From positions 1-52,544 of the forward strand of contig JAUWLW010000018.1 in assembly GCA_030613505.1 (NCBI GenBank): a DNA stretch of 52,544 nucleotides, in the 5' to 3' direction. The notes under the pieces were generated by a model. That model was not told where the DNA came from and did no database searches. It saw nothing but the letters and a program-made list of their open reading frames with translations. This DNA comes from Candidatus Zixiibacteriota bacterium (GTDB lineage Bacteria; RBG-13-66-14; B26-G2; WVWN01). This document shows positions 3,980-52,544 of the stretch, piece after piece (within the stretch, counting starts at the first letter, position 1; every line of letters starts with the position of its first letter). Made by a program: the position numbers and the translations under genes.

Positions 3980-4702
3980 ATGGGACAGAAAACGCATCCG
4001 ATCGGCTTTAGGCTCGGGTACATCAAGACCTGGGATTCGCGGTGGTTCGCCAAGCGCGATTACGCCGTCAAGCTTCACCAGGACCTCGCCATCCGCAGGT
4101 ACGTCAAGAAGAACTTCAGCAACGCCGCCATATCGCGCGTCCAGATCGAGCGGACGACGGACCGCGTAATCGTCCACATCTGGACCGCCCGGCCCGGGAT
4201 GATAATCGGTACCAAGGGCGCCCGCATCACGCAGCTGAGGGAAGAGCTCAAGGAAATCGCCGGCGGCGACCTCGACGTTGAAATCCGCGAGATAGAAAAC
4301 GCCGAGCTCGACGCGCAACTGGTAGCGGAGAACGTAGCCGCCCAGCTCGAGCGTCGGATGGGTTTTAGGCGCGTTATGAAGAAGACGCTGGCCACCGTCA
4401 TGAAGCTCGGCGCCAAAGGCTGCAAGATTCAGGTTAAAGGCCGCATAGGCGGCCGCGAGATGGGCCGCCAGGAGAGGTACTCCGACGGCCGCGTCCCGTG
4501 CCAAACGCTCCGCGCCGACATAGATTACGGCCAGGCGGAAGCCAAGACCGTCTACGGCGTCGTGGGCGTTAAGGTGTGGATTTTCCGGGACGAGGTGTTG
4601 CCCTCCGAGATAATCGAACGGGAGGCTCTCGCGGAGCAGACGCGTCGCCCGGCCAAGAGGAAGCGGCGCCGCTCGAAGAAGGGTGGCTCGCGCGAGAGGT
4701 AG
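3980..4702 (+). CDS. rpsC: 30S ribosomal protein S3
   Basis: Small-subunit protein S3, 240 residues, at the mRNA entry channel. The N-terminus MGQKTHPIGFRLGYIKTWDS is typical. A KH RNA-binding segment with RPGMIIGTKG is near residues 72-81, and the C-terminal domain shows GRIGGREMGRQE. The C-terminus is strongly basic (RRPAKRKRRRSKKGG), a little longer than in many families. It lies 18 bases after rplV. Confidence 0.96.
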   Translation: MGQKTHPIGFRLGYIKTWDSRWFAKRDYAVKLHQDLAIRRYVKKNFSNAAISRVQIERTTDRVIVHIWTARPGMIIGTKGARITQLREELKEIAGGDLDVEIREIENAELDAQLVAENVAAQLERRMGFRRVMKKTLATVMKLGAKGCKIQVKGRIGGREMGRQERYSDGRVPCQTLRADIDYGQAEAKTVYGVVGVKVWIFRDEVLPSEIIEREALAEQTRRPAKRKRRRSKKGGSRER

Positions 4703-4732
4703 TAGCGACGTAAGCGTCCGGAGCGCAGATAT

Positions 4733-5143
4733 ATGTTAATGCCCAAGAGGACGAAGTGGCGCAAACAACAGCGGGGCCGCCGGCGCGGGAAGGCCAGGCG
4801 CGGCAACACGCTGCAATTCGGCTCCTTCGGCCTCCAGGCGCGGGAGGCGGCCTGGCTCTCCGCGGCGCAGATCGAGTCGGCGCGCGTCGCCATAACCCGC
4901 CACGTCAAGCGCCAGGGGAAATTGTGGATTCGCGTCTTCCCGGATAAGCCCGTGACGAAGAAGCCGCTCGAGACCCGTATGGGCAAAGGTAAAGGCGCGC
5001 CCGAGTTCTGGGTAGCGGTCGTCCGCCCCGGCCTGGTCCTGTTCGAGCTGGAGGGCGTGCCGCCCGCCACGGCCCGCGAGGCCATGAGGCGGGCCAAGTA
5101 CAAGTTGCCCATAAAGACTAAATATTTGGAGATAGAGGAATAG
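4733..5143 (+). CDS. rplP: 50S ribosomal protein L16
   Basis: Large-subunit protein L16, 136 residues, near the A-site tRNA and 5S rRNA. The start [16 protein letters not shown] is the family-typical opening. Other conserved text is [28 protein letters not shown] and [11 protein letters not shown]. The next gene, rpmC, starts three bases after this gene's stop codon. Confidence 0.97.
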
Positions 5144-5145
5144 CT

Positions 5146-5379
5146 TTGGGCCTGAAGAAAGAACGCGAGGAGCTGCGGCATAAAACGGTGGAGGAGCTGG
5201 AGATCTCGCTCCGGGACGCCAAGAAGGAGATGTTGGTGATACGGACCAACATCGCCACCCGCCAGGAAGAGGACAACAACCGGAGCAAGATGCTCAAGCG
5301 CCGCATCGCCCGCATCCTCACCGTCATTGGCGAGAAGCAGCACGCGGTCGCGGCGGCGGCCGCCGGAGATAATCGATGA
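5146..5379 (+). CDS. rpmC: 50S ribosomal protein L29
   Basis: Large-subunit protein L29, 77 residues, a helical hairpin at the exit-tunnel rim. The start is TTG at 5146. The first helix shows [22 protein letters not shown]; the second has a [14 protein letters not shown] core. An alanine-rich tail ([11 protein letters not shown]) follows. The stop overlaps the rpsQ ATG (5376-5379). Confidence 0.94.
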
Positions 5380-5654
5380 CCGCGACGGAAGAAATGACGG
5401 CGCGCCGAGGCCGCCGCAAAGTGATGCAGGGCCGCGTGGTAAGCGACGCGGGGGATAAGGCCATGGTCGTCGAAATCGAGACTCGAAAACAACACCCATT
5501 TTTTAAGAAGATGGTGAAGAGGTCGAAGCGTTTCATGGCGCACGACGAGAACAACGAGTGCCGCGTCGGCGACACGGTCCGCGTAATGGAGACGCGGCCC
5601 TTGTCCAAACGCAAACGCTGGCGCCTCGTCGAGGTGGTCGAACGGGCCAAATAA
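5376..5654 (+). CDS. rpsQ: 30S ribosomal protein S17
   Basis: Small-subunit 16S-rRNA-binding OB-fold protein S17, 92 residues. Family text: [19 protein letters not shown], then [19 protein letters not shown], and [19 protein letters not shown]. An N-terminal stretch of about 14 residues ([14 protein letters not shown]) precedes the fold, slightly longer than usual. It overlaps the rpmC stop by four bases. Confidence 0.96.
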
Positions 5655-45319: not shown

Positions 45320-46240
45320 ATGAGACGAAATGCGTTACTTGCGGCCGCGTTCGCCGTAGCACTGGTGCTGGCGTGCGCGGAAGACGATATCGCGGAAGTT
45401 TCTTCGTGGACGGTATATCGAGGACCGATGCCGGGCGGCGTGAGCCTTCGGGACGTGGACGCTTCGGGGCCCAACGACGTTTGGGCCGTCGGCGCGCAGG
45501 GAAAGATATTGCACTACGACGGCGTACGGTGGACGTTCTACCCGGCCTCCATTACCGGCCTCGCCTTAAACGCCGTGACGATCACCTCCGGGAGTTCCGG
45601 GTGGGCGGTGGGCGCTGACGGCGTCGTGCTCCGTTATCACAACGGCCAGTGGTTCAATACCGTGCACCTCACCGGCTTCGACCTCTACGGCGTGGACTTC
45701 GACGACGCCGGTAACGGTTTCGCGGTGGGCGATCACGGCGTAATCTTCCGATATGACGGCGAGAGATGGCGAGACGTATCGCTCGCCGGCGTTACCGCGG
45801 ACCTCCGCGACGTGGTAATCGGCCCCGGCGGGACCGCGTGGGCGGTGGGCGACGCGGCCACGGTGCTGTACTACGACGGCGGCCGGTGGCGCGAAGTGGT
45901 CGTCCCCACCGCGGAGCGGCTGCACGGCGTGGCGTTGGCCGGCGACGGCGCGTACGCCGTGGGCGACGACGGCGTAATCCTACAGAACAGCGGCGGTTCG
46001 TGGAACGTCGTGCCTACGCCGGCGACGGTGTCGCTCTTGAGCGTGGACGCCGTGGGCGACGCGGCGTATGCGTGCGGCAACGACGGCGCTTTGTTGGGTA
46101 TGAAGGACGGCGCGTGGCGGCAGGTTCGGCTCGAGATGGCCCCGGTCAACTTCAACGGCGTCGTACTGTGCAACGGCGGCGAAGGCTGGGCCGTGGGCGA
46201 CCAGGGCGTCATCCTCCGGTACCATCGCGTCGACGACTGA
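45320..46240 (+). CDS. Beta-propeller lipoprotein (YCF48/BNR-like repeats)
   Basis: A 306-residue protein with a lipobox ending at C19 (LVLAC). It then consists of about six to seven repeats of some 40 residues with the pattern GxAVGxxGxxLxYxGxxW, for example NDVWAVGAQGKILHYDGVRW, SGWAVGADGVVLRYHNGQW and GEGWAVGDQGVILRYH. A single beta-propeller anchored at the outside of a membrane is expected. The ligand is unknown. It starts three bases after the desulfurase gene and ends at a terminator. Confidence 0.9.
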   Translation: MRRNALLAAAFAVALVLACAEDDIAEVSSWTVYRGPMPGGVSLRDVDASGPNDVWAVGAQGKILHYDGVRWTFYPASITGLALNAVTITSGSSGWAVGADGVVLRYHNGQWFNTVHLTGFDLYGVDFDDAGNGFAVGDHGVIFRYDGERWRDVSLAGVTADLRDVVIGPGGTAWAVGDAATVLYYDGGRWREVVVPTAERLHGVALAGDGAYAVGDDGVILQNSGGSWNVVPTPATVSLLSVDAVGDAAYACGNDGALLGMKDGAWRQVRLEMAPVNFNGVVLCNGGEGWAVGDQGVILRYHRVDD

Positions 46241-46304: not shown

Positions 46305-47198
46305 CTACAGAAGGTCCGCCGCCACCTTGTACGTGTTCACGTGGATGGTGACGGTGTCCTCGGTCCGCGCGGCGTAGCCGCCGGCCAGGAGTATCACGAC
46401 CGGGATCCCCCGCTCGCGGCAGCCGCCCAGCACGATCCGGTCGCGCTCGGCCAGCCCCTCGAGAGTGAGCTGCAGCGTCCCGAGCTGGTCGCCGACGTAG
46501 GGGTCGGCGCCGGCCACGTACGCCACGAACTCGGGACGGTGCTTCTCTAGTATTTGTGGTACGTGCTTGCGCAGCGGCGGGAGGTAGACGTCGTCGCCGG
46601 CGAAGGAGGGCAGGCCGACGTCGAGGTCGCTGCGCTGTTTGACCGGGTAGAGGTGCTCCTCGTGGATGGAGAAGGTGAAGACGTCGGCGTCGCCGGCGAA
46701 TATGACGGCGGTGCCGTTGCCCTGGTGGAGGTCGCAGTCGATGACCGCGGCCCGCTCGACGCGTCCCTCGTGCAGCATCACCCGCACCGCCAGCGCGACG
46801 TCGTTTATGTAGCAGAAGCCCTCGGCGCGGTCGGGGAAGGCGTGGTGGAGGCCGCCGCCGACGTTCATCGCCGGGTCGCCCCCCTCGAGCGCGAGCCGCG
46901 CCGCGGCGATCGAGCCGCCCGCGCCTAAAAGGAAAGCGCGGGCTATCCCCTCGGTCAGCGCCATCTCGGAGGAAGCGGTGCGATGGGTCCACCGCGCCGC
47001 CAGGACGTCGTCCAGGTACTCGCTCGTGTGGACCAGCTCGAGCTCCTCGCGGGTGGCCGGCGAGGGTTCGACCACTTCGCCCAGGAGGCCCTCCGCCTCG
47101 AGCCGCTCGACGATAAGGCGGTACTTCTCGATGGGGAAGACGTGACCCTGCAGGTCAGCGAGATATTGGGGGGAGTAGACGATGGGGATGGTGCTCAT
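46305..47198 (-). CDS. Histone-deacetylase-family (AcuC/class II-like) zinc hydrolase
   Basis: A 297-residue zinc-dependent amidohydrolase. H118-H119 in GGGLHHAFPD, then DCDLHQGNGTAVIFAG with metal ligands D156 and H158, and VAGADPYVGDQLGTL form the expected active site. Bacterial members deacetylate proteins, polyamines or small amides; the substrate is unknown. It begins one base after the stop of an outer-membrane-type paralog gene and so seems to be the last gene of that operon, an unusual setting. Confidence 0.93.
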   Translation of the reverse strand: MSTIPIVYSPQYLADLQGHVFPIEKYRLIVERLEAEGLLGEVVEPSPATREELELVHTSEYLDDVLAARWTHRTASSEMALTEGIARAFLLGAGGSIAAARLALEGGDPAMNVGGGLHHAFPDRAEGFCYINDVALAVRVMLHEGRVERAAVIDCDLHQGNGTAVIFAGDADVFTFSIHEEHLYPVKQRSDLDVGLPSFAGDDVYLPPLRKHVPQILEKHRPEFVAYVAGADPYVGDQLGTLQLTLEGLAERDRIVLGGCRERGIPVVILLAGGYAARTEDTVTIHVNTYKVAADLL

Positions 47199-47199
47199 A

Positions 47200-47781
47200 T
47201 CAGAATGATAAAGTCAGGCCGTATACCGGCGTCGGCTCGTCGCGGCCTACGCGGTACGCGGTTACGTAGGGCGTCGCCGAAATGCGGGAAGAAGCGGCAT
47301 CGGCCTCGGGTTTCTTGACGCGGTTGTATACGTACGCGTTGAGGAAGGCGTTCGGTACTACGCCGTAGAAAACGCCGCGCCAGAAACGATTAAAGTGGTC
47401 TTGATCGTTAAATACGGCTACCCCCGTGAAACCAAATAAGACGGCGGCGCCGACGCAGGCAAAGGAAGGCAAAAGGTAGGCGGACCGGCGATTAGCCGAC
47501 GGCGCGCCGAAACGTTCGCCTATACCCATAGTCCCCAAAGTAGTTGCGAACGGGTATGCGAAAGCCAAGGTGTTACCGATTATAACGCCGGGCCAATACG
47601 GCTCGGCCTCGACGATTCGATCATAACCGCCGCCGTAAAGCGACGAGGAGGCTACTACCAAATAAAAACCACCCACGGTAACGGGTACGCTGAGCGCGCA
47701 CCCCGCGGCCGCCTCGCCCAAGAACAAACCCGTCCGGAAGCCGCCGGGTTCTCCGCCATAAGCTGCGAGCGCCCCCGCCAT
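47200..47781 (-). CDS. Secreted GE/SxN-family protein, paralog A
   Basis: Unrecognised family; 193 residues from ATG 47781. Comparison with paralog B suggests the real start is 33 bases upstream, where an ATA (47814-47812) sits exactly where an ATG overlapping the previous stop (TAATG) would be; that form begins with a signal peptide (KSAVTLTAVMAGALAA). Shared family marks, ATG numbering: AYP 75-77, GE 88-89, SAN 95-97, YN 152-153, KKP 156-158, and the ending VYGLTLSF. Gly/Ala-rich hydrophobic segments and a final Phe suggest outer-membrane or envelope location. It lies between paralog B and the deacetylase-like gene. Confidence 0.75.
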   Translation of the reverse strand: MAGALAAYGGEPGGFRTGLFLGEAAAGCALSVPVTVGGFYLVVASSSLYGGGYDRIVEAEPYWPGVIIGNTLAFAYPFATTLGTMGIGERFGAPSANRRSAYLLPSFACVGAAVLFGFTGVAVFNDQDHFNRFWRGVFYGVVPNAFLNAYVYNRVKKPEADAASSRISATPYVTAYRVGRDEPTPVYGLTLSF

Positions 47782-47813
47782 AACCGCCGTTAGCGTTACG
47801 GCACTTTTCCTTA

Positions 47814-48398
47814 TTAGAACGATACCGTTACCCCCCAGGTGGGCGTGAGTTCCTCCCCTCGCGGCCCGACCCGGCATACGCCGAACGAGGGCTCGAGTTT
47901 CATCGAGAAGCCCGGGATTTCGTGGAAGTACGGCTTTTTGAGGGCGTTGTAGACGGCCGCCGCGGCGAAGCCGGCGGGGATGACGGCGTAGAAGGCCGCG
48001 TTCAAGGCGCCGGCGTCCTTGTCGTCCTCGGTGAGGGCGTAGGCTATACCGCCCGCGCCGCCGACGATGCCGCAGAACGTGGCCGTAGTGGCGAGGAACA
48101 GGACGCCGCGGTTGGCGGAGCGGTGGCCCGACGTCTCGCCGACGACGTATATCCCCAGCGACGCGACGAGCGGCGCCGCGGCGTAGATGACGTACGACGC
48201 CTTCTCGCGGCCCGTCCCGTCGTTCTCGGCGGGGTCGCCCCCCACGGCGTAGCCGGCGACGAAGAACGCGACGCCCACGGCGCTCCCCACCGCGGCCTCG
48301 CTGAAGAAGAGCGCGTCGGGCGTGCCGCCGGGCTCGCCGGCCCGAGCGGCCGCGACGACGCACAAAATGCTGACGACGATGGTTGCGGCCTTGGGCAT
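47814..48398 (-). CDS. Secreted GE/SxN-family protein, paralog B
   Basis: Unrecognised family; 194 residues. The N-terminus MPKAATIVVSILCVVAAARA is a signal peptide followed by GEPGG, a segment also found in paralog A. Family marks: AAPLVASLGIYVVGE with GE at 87-88, SAN 94-96, YN 150-151, KKP 154-156, and the C-terminus WGVTVSF. Four or so hydrophobic Ala/Gly-rich stretches lie between. The final Phe is typical of outer-membrane proteins, but the hydrophobic runs are longer than barrel strands, so topology is open. It is in the c-barrel-b-a-deacetylase operon. Confidence 0.8.
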   Translation of the reverse strand: MPKAATIVVSILCVVAAARAGEPGGTPDALFFSEAAVGSAVGVAFFVAGYAVGGDPAENDGTGREKASYVIYAAAPLVASLGIYVVGETSGHRSANRGVLFLATTATFCGIVGGAGGIAYALTEDDKDAGALNAAFYAVIPAGFAAAAVYNALKKPYFHEIPGFSMKLEPSFGVCRVGPRGEELTPTWGVTVSF

Positions 48399-48407
48399 CC
48401 TAATAAT

Positions 48408-49151
48408 CTAAAACTGTAGGACCGGGGCTAAGAACAGCGTGAAGCCGACGGGACGTTCGCCGGGCGCGTCGTCGTCCAGCGTCTTAATGCGATTCGTGAT
48501 TTCGAACCCGCCCGTTATCCCGAAATACTTGGCCACCCGGTACGTCGCGACGGCGGCGGCCGCCAGCTCCAGCGTCTTCCAATCGGCGTCCAGCGACCAC
48601 GTGATACGCGGCTCGGACCGGATAGTCTTCACCCACGCCGTGCCGCCCCGTTCATTTAACGCTACGCCGACGCCGCCCCACGCCGCGCCCGACAATCCCT
48701 CGTCGTTGGCGAATTTTACGCCGCCCAGCGCGAGGATGCGCCGGCTCGTCGTCTCGCCGTCGGCATACTCAAACGGGAAGGGCACGGATTGTTTCTCCCC
48801 GCCCTCGTAATCGTAATCTTTAAACCGGCTTTGGCGGTAGTTGAGGCCGGCGACGGGGGCGACGTCTTTAGCGCCGAAGGCCACGAGCGGCGTGACGTCC
48901 GCGCTGTAATAACGCCGCTCCCATTCGTCTACGTATACGTCGGAGGAGGTATCGCCGGAGTCGGTGGGCATTATCGCGCCGCGGGCGTACACCGATGCCG
49001 GCCCGACGTGCACCGCCAGCGACAGGCCGTAGACGGCGTCACCCTCTCCCGGCGCCCTGGAGTCGAAGCCCACGGCCGGCCCGACATCTACGAGCGCCGC
49101 CGCCGAGCCTGTGTAAATCATTGAGAATGCAAGGATTAAGCGGGATTGCAT
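48408..49151 (-). CDS. Putative outer-membrane beta-barrel protein
   Basis: A 247-residue protein with a signal-peptide-like start (MQSRLILAFSMIYTGSAAA) behind AAGGAG. The rest alternates polar and non-polar residues with turns, such as VYGLSLAVHVGPASVYARGA, GVGVALNERGGTAW and RITWSLDADWKTLELAAAAV, and ends in LFLAPVLQF with a C-terminal Phe. This is the pattern of a small barrel of 10-12 strands. I cannot assign a family. It lacks the GE/SxN marks of its neighbours but shares their operon. Confidence 0.75.
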   Translation of the reverse strand: MQSRLILAFSMIYTGSAAALVDVGPAVGFDSRAPGEGDAVYGLSLAVHVGPASVYARGAIMPTDSGDTSSDVYVDEWERRYYSADVTPLVAFGAKDVAPVAGLNYRQSRFKDYDYEGGEKQSVPFPFEYADGETTSRRILALGGVKFANDEGLSGAAWGGVGVALNERGGTAWVKTIRSEPRITWSLDADWKTLELAAAAVATYRVAKYFGITGGFEITNRIKTLDDDAPGERPVGFTLFLAPVLQF

Positions 49152-49164
49152 AACTCGGGTCTCC

Positions 49165-49632
49165 TTAGAAATTGAACGAAGTATATACGTAGAAGCCGCC
49201 GCCCTCGCCGTCCGCGTTTTCGTCGGCGGTATTTTTTACGAGGTTGTAGGCCAAGGTCGAGGCCGCGGGCGCCGCCAACATACCTATTAGCAAACCCTTA
49301 TATCTCGCCGCTAGGTAGCCGGCCGCGGCCGACACGTACGCCGCCGCCACCGAGGCGCCGACGCCGGCCCAGTCGTTTTCGGAGTCGTCGCCCCAGATCT
49401 CGCCGGCGCCGTATACGCCGAGGCCCACGCCCGCGGGGTAAGCTATGATCAGGCCGTACAGGCCACCGCCGGCGAATTCCTCGCTCGAGAACAGGTTGCC
49501 CACCGGGATACCGGCCAGGCCGACGCCGATGCCGCCGACGTAGCCGCAACCGACCTCCGCGGCCACGACGCCGGCGCCGTCCGCCCACGCGGCCGCGGCG
49601 GTTACCATTAACAATAGCGTTATAACGCGCAC
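49165..49632 (-). CDS. Secreted GE/SxN-family protein, paralog C
   Basis: Unrecognised family; 155 residues from GTG 49632, the shortest member. A signal peptide (VRVITLLLMVTAAAAWA) is followed by a Gly-rich chain. Family marks: AYP 64-66, GVYGAGE with GE at 77-78, SEN 84-86, YN 129-130 then LVKN (KN in place of KK), and the C-terminus FYVYTSFNF. It is the first gene of the minus operon. Its promoter lies only five bases before the GTG, so translation is probably leaderless. Confidence 0.78.
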   Translation of the reverse strand: MRVITLLLMVTAAAAWADGAGVVAAEVGCGYVGGIGVGLAGIPVGNLFSSEEFAGGGLYGLIIAYPAGVGLGVYGAGEIWGDDSENDWAGVGASVAAAYVSAAAGYLAARYKGLLIGMLAAPAASTLAYNLVKNTADENADGEGGGFYVYTSFNF

Positions 49633-49637
49633 CCGAA

Positions 49638-49666
49638 ATAATACAACGGCTCGCTCGCCTTGTAAA
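49638..49666 (-). promoter_or_regulatory. Promoter of the paralog operon, apparently leaderless
   Basis: On the minus strand, TTTACA (49666-49661), 17 bases, TATTAT (49643-49638), then five bases to GTG 49632. Transcription should begin at the start codon. Its -35 is 24 bases from the -35 of the divergent promoter. Confidence 0.7.
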
Positions 49667-49690
49667 CAGAAACCGACGCGCAATTTTTGG

Positions 49691-49719
49691 TTGCGCCGTC
49701 CCCGAATGTTAATTATTAT
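49691..49719 (+). promoter_or_regulatory. Divergent promoter of the Omp85-like gene, apparently leaderless
   Basis: TTGCGC (49691-49696), 17 bases, TATTAT (49714-49719), then six bases to GTG 49726. The same -10 hexamer and the same close spacing to the start codon as the opposite promoter. Confidence 0.65.
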
Positions 49720-49725
49720 AGCGCC

Positions 49726-50817
49726 GTGCGCGCGAAGCCTACGGCAATAATATTGGCTATCGCGGCCGCGCCGGTGTGGGCCGTCACCTGGGCGGGCCTG
49801 CCCTTCGGGTATTACACCCCCGACACCGGCCCGGCCTTCGGCGCCTACGCCGCGGCCTTCTTCCGCCTTCCCGAAAGCCTGCCCGATACGCGCGATTCCT
49901 ACGTCCAGCCGATGGCGGTCTATACCTGGCACCGCCAGTTCCGCTTCGACCTCAACGGCGACCTGTACTCGCCGACCGGCGATTGGCGGCTTTTGGCCGA
50001 GGACCGCTTCGAGAAGTACCCCACGGCGTTCTGGCCTCCCCCCGGCTCCGAAGACGTGGCCAAGGCGTATTACGCGCGCTACACGCGCGAGATGCTGCGG
50101 GCGGACGTCAAGGGGTACCGTCGCGTCGTCGGGCCGTTCTACGGTGGCCTGGGCGCGTACGTGGAGAACTACGAAATCGTCGAGTGGGCGCCCGACGCGG
50201 AGGGTTTGCCGGCGGGGTATCTACCCGGGCCGGCGGCGTACGCGCCGGGCGTAGAGGGGGGCCTTCTGGTCGGGCCCACGGCCTTCGCCGAGTACGATAC
50301 CCGCGACCGCCGCCATACGACGACGGAGGGTCTATTCCTGCGGGCACGTTTCTCGCTCTTCGACGAAGGCGCCGGCTCGGACTACTCGTTCCGGTGGTAC
50401 GAGGCCGACGCGCGGTTCTTCTGGGCGGTGGACCGGCTGGGCCGGAAATGGACCTGCGCCAACCGGCTGTTCCTTTCGGGGCGGGACGGCGCGCCGCCGT
50501 TCTGGGCGATGGCGGAGCTGGGCGGCTCCGCGCTTCTGCGGGGCGAGCCGGAGGGGCGGGCGCGAGGCCGGTGGCTGATAGCCTACCAGGAGGAGGTCCG
50601 CGTACCGCTGTGGTGGCGGCTGGTGGGCGCTTTGTTCGTGGACGTGGGCGACGTCGGCTTCACGGTGGCCGACTTCTCGTTCGACCACGTGATGCTCACC
50701 GCCGGCGGCGGCCTGCGCCTCGACCTGGTGCGCGACGGCGAGGCCCGCGTGCGCCTCGACTACGGCCGCGGCAAGGACTCGCAGGGGATTTACCTGGTAT
50801 TCGACGAGGCGTTTTAA
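49726..50817 (+). CDS. Omp85/BamA-TamA-type C-terminal barrel protein
   Basis: A 363-residue protein from GTG 49726, with a signal peptide (VRAKPTAIILAIAAAPVWA). It resembles the surface-antigen barrel of Omp85 proteins: EYDTRDRRHTTTEGLFLRAR opens the barrel, RGEPEGRARGRW is a likely loop-6 RGF-like motif, and GGGLRLDLVRDGEARVRLDY plus a final SQGIYLVFDEAF closes it with a C-terminal Phe. No POTRA repeats are seen, so it is a short form that probably sits in the outer membrane without a large periplasmic part. A TTG at 49687 gives a longer frame without signal-peptide logic. Confidence 0.85.
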   Translation: MRAKPTAIILAIAAAPVWAVTWAGLPFGYYTPDTGPAFGAYAAAFFRLPESLPDTRDSYVQPMAVYTWHRQFRFDLNGDLYSPTGDWRLLAEDRFEKYPTAFWPPPGSEDVAKAYYARYTREMLRADVKGYRRVVGPFYGGLGAYVENYEIVEWAPDAEGLPAGYLPGPAAYAPGVEGGLLVGPTAFAEYDTRDRRHTTTEGLFLRARFSLFDEGAGSDYSFRWYEADARFFWAVDRLGRKWTCANRLFLSGRDGAPPFWAMAELGGSALLRGEPEGRARGRWLIAYQEEVRVPLWWRLVGALFVDVGDVGFTVADFSFDHVMLTAGGGLRLDLVRDGEARVRLDYGRGKDSQGIYLVFDEAF

Positions 50818-50832
50818 ATATTTAACGTAGGG

Positions 50833-50945
50833 GCCGACCTTAAGGTCGGCGCAGTTCTTTTAGGGGTGGTACGTTTATAGGCCGCCGGCTTAAGCCGGCG
50901 GTTTGACGCTTCGCTGGTTAGGCACCGCCCGCTAAAGCGGGCGGT
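50833..50945. repeat. Three consecutive perfect palindromes
   Basis: Between convergent genes lie GCCGACCTTAAGGTCGGC (50833-50850), CCGCCGGCTTAAGCCGGCGG (50882-50901), and arms ACCGCCCGCT / AGCGGGCGGT around AA (50924-50945). Each is perfect and the first two centre on TTAA; a TAGG precedes each. The stems differ in sequence, so these are three separate REP-like palindromic elements rather than a copied array. They may also terminate both flanking genes, although no T run follows. Confidence 0.85.
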
Positions 50946-50958
50946 ATTCGATTAAATA

Positions 50959-51561
50959 TTAAAAAGACAGCGAAAGGCCGTACACCGGCACCGGCGCGCC
51001 GTTGCCGGCAGTAGTTACGGCCACGTAAGGTTCTAAAGTAGGGCCCCGGCTTTCGGCCGGCGTCTGGGCCGGTTTCTTCGCTTTGTTGTATACGTACGTT
51101 ACGAGTAAGGGCTTAGTTAAAATATCGGTTATTAACGCTTTGGTGTAGGCACCTTCGTCGATATCGTCGGAGGCGGCGTCGACCAGGGCTGCGGTGCCGA
51201 CCAGGGCAAGCGTTTGACCGTACGCCGATAATACGGTTATGCCAAAGGCGGCGCCCTTATTTTCGGAAGGCTCGGCGACGTTTTCCCCTACGAGATAGGC
51301 GCCGCCGGCCGCGGCGAGGGGATACGCGCTAAATATTGCGTATGCCGCGACTAATCCCGGGACGAAGTCCTCGTCGCCGCTTCCCCAGCTGGTCGAGGCC
51401 AGGGCAATAGAAACTCCCACGGAGATAACCGCGAATTCCCCGAAGCCGGCCGCTACGACCTCGAATATAAAAACGTCGGCTCCAACGCCGAACGCGGGCG
51501 CCGGGAAGAACCCGGCCGCGACGAGCGCGAGCGACGTTAATACTTTAATCGGTATATTCAT
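50959..51561 (-). CDS. Secreted GE/SxN-family protein, paralog D
   Basis: Unrecognised family; 200 residues from ATG 51561 behind GGAGGG. The longer open frame upstream lies in the DUF362 gene and was trimmed. The signal peptide (MNIPIKVLTSLALVAAGF, then PAPAFG) is followed by hydrophobic Ala/Gly segments. Family marks: AYP 79-81, GE 92-93, SEN 99-101, YN 158-159, KKP 162-164, and the ending PVYGLSLSF, very close to paralog A. It is 17 bases after the DUF362 gene, so it may share its transcript. Confidence 0.8.
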   Translation of the reverse strand: MNIPIKVLTSLALVAAGFFPAPAFGVGADVFIFEVVAAGFGEFAVISVGVSIALASTSWGSGDEDFVPGLVAAYAIFSAYPLAAAGGAYLVGENVAEPSENKGAAFGITVLSAYGQTLALVGTAALVDAASDDIDEGAYTKALITDILTKPLLVTYVYNKAKKPAQTPAESRGPTLEPYVAVTTAGNGAPVPVYGLSLSF

Positions 51562-51578: not shown

Positions 51579-52544
51579 CTACTTCCAGTACATCCCCTCC
51601 GGCGGGTAGCGCAGGAAGAGCTTGCCCCACTCGCTCTCGTCCAATATCTTTTGGACGCGTTTCTTTCCTATGAACGGATACCAGAAGGCGTCGTGGTAGA
51701 GGCGCGAGGCCGCGTACGACCAGGGCACCAGCGGCGTCCGTAAAAGGAAGTGCTCGAGTGGCTTGAGCCAGCCGTGGTATATCGCCTTCTGGCCGCGCGA
51801 GGCGAAAGTGTCCTCGTGGGGCGAGAAGTGGAGGTTCATACCGGAGACGTCGTCGCCGACGAGCTCTATCTCGCGGGGGTCGCCGACGCCCAGGCCCCGC
51901 TCGTGGGCCAGCCGGATGAAGTCGAGCTCGAGCGGCTCCAGGCCCATTAGCTTGGCGGATATGGCGTCTACGGCGACCTGGTCGGCGGAGGCCAGGATGA
52001 CGTCGGCCACGACGGGCCGCATGGCCCGGGGGCCCGGGCCGTCGCCGGCGACGGTCCCGTCCATAACCGCGAAGATGCCGGCGTGGATATCCTGCTGTAT
52101 CGTCAACAGGTCCACCAGCGTCTCGTGGATGACGGCGTGGGTCCAGTGGCGCTCGATGTTGAGCAGGCCGCCGAAGGCGTTCTTCATCGCGCCCGTCATC
52201 GTCGTGAAGACGTGGGTCTTGACCGTCGGCAAGTGTATGATGTTGGTTCCGGGGAAGGACTTGGGGAGCCAAAGGCCCTTCTTCTTGTACACGTCGCTGA
52301 GGACGAGCATCTCGCCCGGGGGCTCGTAGGGGACCCACTCCTCCTGGTCGGGGTCTTGCAGGTAGTGGAACTCCAGGCCGAACTTGTCGGCGACGCCCTG
52401 TAGCTTGTTGAGGCGCGCGCCCACCTTGGGGTCGACGACGACGGTGGCGTTCTGGCACAGGACGAGGTTCTCCTTGGGATAGCCGTCCTCGAGGAGCGTC
52501 TTGATGACGGCCTCGAGCTGCCACGGCGTCGTCGAGCAGGCCGG
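51579..52544 (-). CDS. DUF362-domain protein (5' end outside window)
   Basis: At least 321 residues; the frame is open to the right edge, so the N-terminus is missing. DUF362 text: PKSFPGTNIIHLPTVKTHVF, MTGAMKNAFGGLLNIERHW, and IFAVMDGTVAGDGPGPRAM with ASADQVAVDAISAKLMGLEP. The family is found mainly in anaerobes and may act in iron-sulfur or redox chemistry, but function is not established. Beyond the DUF362 core is a C-terminal region of about 90 residues ending in KLFLRYPPEGMYWK that I do not recognise. No ferredoxin-type Cys cluster is visible in the part seen. Confidence 0.9.
   Translation of the reverse strand, partial: PACSTTPWQLEAVIKTLLEDGYPKENLVLCQNATVVVDPKVGARLNKLQGVADKFGLEFHYLQDPDQEEWVPYEPPGEMLVLSDVYKKKGLWLPKSFPGTNIIHLPTVKTHVFTTMTGAMKNAFGGLLNIERHWTHAVIHETLVDLLTIQQDIHAGIFAVMDGTVAGDGPGPRAMRPVVADVILASADQVAVDAISAKLMGLEPLELDFIRLAHERGLGVGDPREIELVGDDVSGMNLHFSPHEDTFASRGQKAIYHGWLKPLEHFLLRTPLVPWSYAASRLYHDAFWYPFIGKKRVQKILDESEWGKLFLRYPPEGMYWK

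Follow-up and report, generated by a model that had tools for sequence, protein, structure and literature searches.

The window analysed here, a stretch of 52,544 nucleotides which represents one entire contig (C35) of a 2.86 Mb genome, encodes four strongly diverged secreted proteins that appear, from sequence comparisons, to be a Coatesbacteria-specific expansion of a wider unnamed bacterial family. Sequence analysis and structure models support an exported, glycine/alanine-rich and glycine-packed four-helix bundle, which is likely located in an envelope membrane. We propose, with a probability of roughly 0.4, that the C-terminal tail anchors these bundles at the outer membrane, where they would act as structural or lipid-organising proteins similar to SlyB. 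The genome is placed in Candidatus Coatesbacteria by matching neighbourhoods in the named records CP070633.1 and JAUVZD010000010.1.

The coordinates of the locus are given in Table 1, and genes are named below by their first coordinate. In the direction of minus-strand transcription, the DUF362 gene and the 50959 family member are followed, past the plus-strand Omp85 gene, by the operon 49165-48408-47814-47200-46305. Its genes are separated by 13, 9, -7 and 1 nt and may be co-transcribed. The earlier note had described this operon with three paralogs, a barrel candidate and a deacetylase, which is correct. The copy outside the operon is the gene at 50959-51561 (YGLSLSF), which follows DUF362; the letters C and D of that note are swapped, provided that its letters A to D follow the order of the listed C-termini. 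The divergent intergenic region of approximately 93 bp (49633-49725) contains a promoter-like match on the minus strand (TTTACA-17-TATTAT), the number of such matches being within chance. At the other end, a YCF48-like beta-propeller protein (45320-46240) faces the operon; its position beside the deacetylase is conserved in each of the four species that make up the genus here.

Table 1. Features of the four-paralog locus in the window.
Feature	Position	Strand	Remarks
Histone-deacetylase-domain enzyme	46305..47198	-	PF00850 E 8e-62; without signal peptide; last operon gene
Family member	47200..47820	-	206 aa; GTG start; 7-nt overlap with preceding gene; ends YGLTLSF; ortholog only in G001
Family member	47814..48398	-	194 aa; ends WGVTVSF; orthologs in G001, G002, G003
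Barrel candidate	48408..49151	-	247 aa; ends LQF; weak outer-membrane beta-barrel similarity only (PF13505 E 0.05, under cut-off); genus-only
Family member, probably ancestral type	49165..49632	-	155 aa; signal peptide, helical bundle, short tail ending SFNF; operon gene 1
Divergent Omp85-superfamily barrel without POTRA	49687..50817	+	PF01103, NF047779
Family member outside the operon	50959..51561	-	200 aa; ends YGLSLSF; directly after DUF362; predicted four helices and C-terminal beta-hairpin
DUF362 gene	51579..52424	-	truncated by contig end

All four open reading frames claimed as paralogs are present, and they carry the described marks in the described order, i.e. a signal peptide, AYP (AAP in the 47814 protein), GxY/M-x-x-GE, S[AE]N, YN-x-x-K[KN] and a terminal Phe. 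Their pairwise homology was evaluated by shuffle tests after removal of the signal peptides, which gave p values of 4e-12 for 47200/47814, 9e-14 for 47200/50959, 7e-9 for 47814/50959, 2e-6 for 50959/49165 and 2e-4 for 47200/49165. The pair 47814/49165 reached only 0.013, such that its kinship is weak by direct comparison and rests on the intermediates. In an alignment of 12 members (A2), E, GE, S-N, YN and the terminal F are invariant. The dN/dS ratios of 0.20-0.31 versus relatives imply that the reading frames are coding and that selection acts on the protein. Judged by these comparisons, the four genes are true paralogs that evolve under purifying selection, and the signal-peptide-like N-termini of the 47200, 47814, 49165 and 50959 proteins suggest that all four are exported.

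Close homologs occur only within the Coatesbacteria class. A profile of the four paralogs found members in the three other species of the genus (G001, G002 and G003), in one further genome of the order and in one of the class; the remaining eight genomes of the phylum that were searched yielded none. Weaker matches were discarded: those in G005 (C18), G007, G008 and G013 either do not coincide with a plausible family gene or run antisense to one, those beyond the class at L028, L030 and L032-L035 are short partial alignments within other proteins, two of them transporter-like, and the match at L029 is antisense to another gene. The 49165 type has orthologs in G002, G003, G004 and G005 and thereby spans three families of the class. 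Among the five further genomes that have members, only G001 shows no such gene, and its contig begins inside the barrel gene, so that absence there cannot be judged. Since it is the most widely kept type and the sole one beyond the genus, its sequence distribution indicates that it is probably the oldest and the likely ancestor of the others. The 47200, 47814 and 50959 types are accordingly seen as genus-level duplicates, several of which were lost or broken in sister species; the 47200 type is found in two species, and the 50959 type is intact only in the window genome, with a distant copy elsewhere in the G002 genome. A tree resolves three groups, namely the 49165 type, the 47814 type and the pair of 47200 sequences; its deep forks are not firm, nor are the long branches that lead to 50959 and the G002 copy. 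The G003 ortholog of the 50959 gene (L019:4701-5288) contains an in-frame TGA, which represents either a recent pseudogene or a fault of the assembly. A second group of secreted proteins has expanded locally just upstream of DUF362, where a protein of 233-236 aa (MKILVSTLAAALVVCAG...) occurs in tandem (L019:377-2771 in G003, L020:3006-3707 in G002), with three copies in G003 and at least one in G002.

From co-expression, the earlier note had derived a module for outer-membrane assembly or modification. Spelled out, this would mean that the paralogs are inserted by the Omp85 barrel and modified by the deacetylase. The tight spacing of the operon, the gene order, which G003 preserves and G001 and G002 share in part, and the divergent Omp85 gene on the common upstream region are in line with this proposal. 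However, the deacetylase lacks an export signal and is not linked to the paralogs in sister families: six of the 14 phylum genomes encode it, and in both of those outside the genus (G004 and G005) it lies among unrelated genes. Moreover, close homologs of the Omp85 protein and orthologs of the barrel candidate are confined to the genus, and the family is present without these genes in G004, G005 and other phyla. Within the genus, G002 lacks the barrel gene but has kept the deacetylase along with the 49165 and 47814 genes. The neighbourhood thus recurs, in part, within the genus, but Omp85 and deacetylase genes do not stand beside the homologs beyond it.

The presence of a divergent Omp85-type barrel beside the family was itself borne out (PF01103 with 26.3 bits just above the cut-off of 24; NF047779 with E 1.2e-20, under its own cut-off), and the comparison with relatives suggests that its start is a GTG at approximately 49726. 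In G005, the Omp85 match is a longer and more distantly related paralog, whose barrel is preceded by a POTRA-like stretch. DUF362 is the sole neighbour that recurs beyond the genus, and it does so in one other family: it adjoins the locus in this genus, is found directly before the family gene in G005 and is far from it in G004. Among 79 DUF362 loci in named records from many phyla, the family was present only in the two Coatesbacteria records. The unlinked deacetylase in G004 and G005, the genus-only Omp85 and barrel genes and the distant DUF362 in G004 together argue that the gene set of the operon is not a conserved functional module. We regard an assembly or modification system as very unlikely; the deacetylase and the Omp85 protein are probably genus-level company rather than partners, and function should not be read from operon membership at 46305-49632.

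The shape of the proteins was predicted with AlphaFold2 for the 49165 and 50959 proteins, for which a common alignment of seven sequences was used. The 49165 model shows the signal peptide and helices at residues 20-46, 56-80 and 87-132 (pLDDT 76, pTM 0.71), the last of which is long enough for two helices. The 50959 model has helices at 28-59, 66-94 (broken), 102-130 and 136-161 (pLDDT 75, pTM 0.64), followed by strands at 175-185 and 189-199 that adjoin Phe 200, i.e. a predicted C-terminal beta-hairpin in this hairpin-type paralog. The hydropathy stretches broadly agree with the modelled helices and are long enough to span a membrane. The structure prediction suggested in the earlier note, barrel versus helical bundle, thus came out in favour of the bundle, because against the eight or more strands used as the mark of a beta-barrel both models have at most two. 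It could still be argued that the proteins are outer-membrane beta-barrels whose strands were mis-assigned as helices by AlphaFold2 from a shallow alignment, since the tail resembles a final barrel strand, barrel genes are neighbours and a periodicity test does not separate helix from strand. But two paralogs were modelled as helical bundles with high local confidence, though one alignment underlies both, and the hydrophobic stretches are long and unbroken, which makes a barrel improbable.

Foldseek searches against the PDB and viral structures gave no significant match. With VIA, ranks 3-13 for the 49165 model are mostly occupied by Tim17 or by complex I subunits of the NDUFA11 type (Z 4-6), which would fit bacterial relatives of the Tim17/Tim23/NDUFA11 fold with its four glycine-rich membrane helices. 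Such relatives might shape membranes or cross them much as those proteins do. However, Z scores of 4-6 lie in a range common for helical bundles and under the trust level, the 50959 model recovered just two such chains low in the list, and no Tim17, Tim22 or Tim23 Pfam family was listed at E <=10 in addition to the missing Foldseek support. A relationship to this fold is therefore the least credible of the explanations considered.

A terminal Phe is found in all 19 members examined, compared to 14 of 119 open reading frames picked from related loci; several of these belong to the family or are barrels themselves. The BAM beta-signal has been described as zeta-x-G-x-x-[aromatic/hydrophobic]-x-[aromatic/hydrophobic] (PMC10945584). 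Gly at -5, a hydrophobic residue at -2 and Phe at 0 occur in each of the nine hairpin-type members, and judged by this consensus the three hairpin-type paralogs would carry most elements of the signal; the members of the 49165 type are without its Gly. The genome encodes a full-length BamA-like Omp85 protein (838-residue frame), hence a BAM route exists. Under the proposed mechanism, the four-helix protein would be exported via Sec, its helices would presumably pack through glycine-zipper contacts into a small integral bundle in the envelope, and the tail, by engaging either the BAM machinery or an outer-membrane barrel at its edge, would hold the bundle at the outer membrane. There it could act as a structural or lipid-organising envelope protein, somewhat like the glycine-zipper hairpins of the SlyB type. 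The duplicates would then diverge as lineage-specific envelope components, the deacetylase being co-transcribed only.

Several points weaken this outer-membrane proposal. Only three of the nine hairpin-type members have the polar residue with which the beta-signal begins, two strands per chain are insufficient to close a barrel alone, and the models come from seven sequences and resemble no solved structure significantly. Moreover, the hydrophobicity of the helices might lead the Sec machinery to leave them in the inner membrane. The proteins could then be Sec-inserted inner-membrane four-helix proteins with both ends in the periplasm, the hairpin forming a periplasmic appendage and the Phe serving packing or partner binding rather than BAM. 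The cleavable-looking signal peptides, which are followed by about four hydrophobic stretches, and the helical prediction in both models agree with such a topology, but the invariant terminal Phe and the Gly at -5 resemble outer-membrane proteins, and the hydropathy of the helices is just moderate because of their Gly/Ala content. We consider an inner-membrane location nearly as likely as outer-membrane anchoring, although on its own it is somewhat doubtful. Integral outer-membrane proteins are, as a rule, barrels; the helical domain would depart from this pattern if it truly resides there through a BAM-type tail.

The notion of a nameless secreted family was substantiated: the four proteins match no Pfam, NCBIfam, PADLOC or solved-structure family, and PHROGs gave one weak match. 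For the search of a wider family, a provisional consensus of a nameless glycine-rich secreted family of other phyla served as a lead. Only its real database matches were used as evidence, and several of them that were low-complexity or other proteins were dropped. The search retrieved real proteins in genomes outside the phylum (E 6e-12, 1.5e-9 and 7e-7), which show glycine-rich hydrophobic stretches, then [FY]N-x-x-R and then a stretch ending in Phe. A profile of four such proteins (A6), which contains no Coatesbacteria sequences, was aligned by hhalign with the Coatesbacteria profile at 92% (score 48.7), compared to 16.6 (0.5%) for the reversed profile and 13.5 for the best of 60 shuffles. 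Over all loci searched, the best matches of A6 after its own members were L178 (5e-6) and then Coatesbacteria members, namely the C-like one in G002 (5e-5) and the one of the 47814 type in G003 (2.5e-4). Since a profile built from outside proteins only recovers the Coatesbacteria members, these represent a divergent branch of the wider unnamed family, and neither branch matches Pfam or NCBIfam above cut-off. Hence, a nameless envelope protein family gains an anatomy and a range beyond one genus. That all of it forms a widespread outer-membrane family of alpha-helical membrane bundles, which are delivered by BAM through a two-strand C-terminal hairpin and are neither barrels nor lipoproteins, is a rather unlikely generalisation.

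Compared to the wider family (L150, L148, L149, L154 and L178), the Coatesbacteria proteins share the glycine-rich helical domain, the [FY]N-x-x-[RK] motif after the last helix in most members and the C-terminal beta-like stretch ending in Phe, whereas the GE and S[AE]N marks and the tandem copies are found on the Coatesbacteria side; the outside member L148 has an extra N-terminal domain. An N-terminal motif VGExIDxxER...GLFP...GFQSA was observed in secreted proteins (L182:1634-2276 and 4566-5624, N-terminus of L148), which are wider-family members or their neighbours in G071 and G087; it possibly marks an unnamed companion domain.

Among known systems, the 49687-50817 protein resembles the noNterm group of POTRA-less Omp85 proteins (PMC4104836; NF047779) in being a barrel of approximately 350 residues without N-terminal extension, but it is a genus-level neighbour and not a member of the four-helix family. 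The deacetylase is an ordinary bacterial HDAC-domain enzyme (PF00850), whose closest protein in the PDB, 9gz5 (E 8e-78), aligns along nearly the whole length with the HH and D-x-D-x-HQGNG motifs kept. For the family itself, a known group for comparison is the PF05433 Rick_17kDa_Anti/SlyB type, to which the outside member L149 has a weak match (5e-4, under cut-off), while none of the 12 members of A2 matched at E <=10. SlyB inserts its helices in the outer membrane. Exported glycine-zipper helices of the envelope are the presumed common feature of both groups, but proteins of the SlyB type combine two helices with a lipid anchor, whereas the Coatesbacteria proteins are predicted to have four helices.
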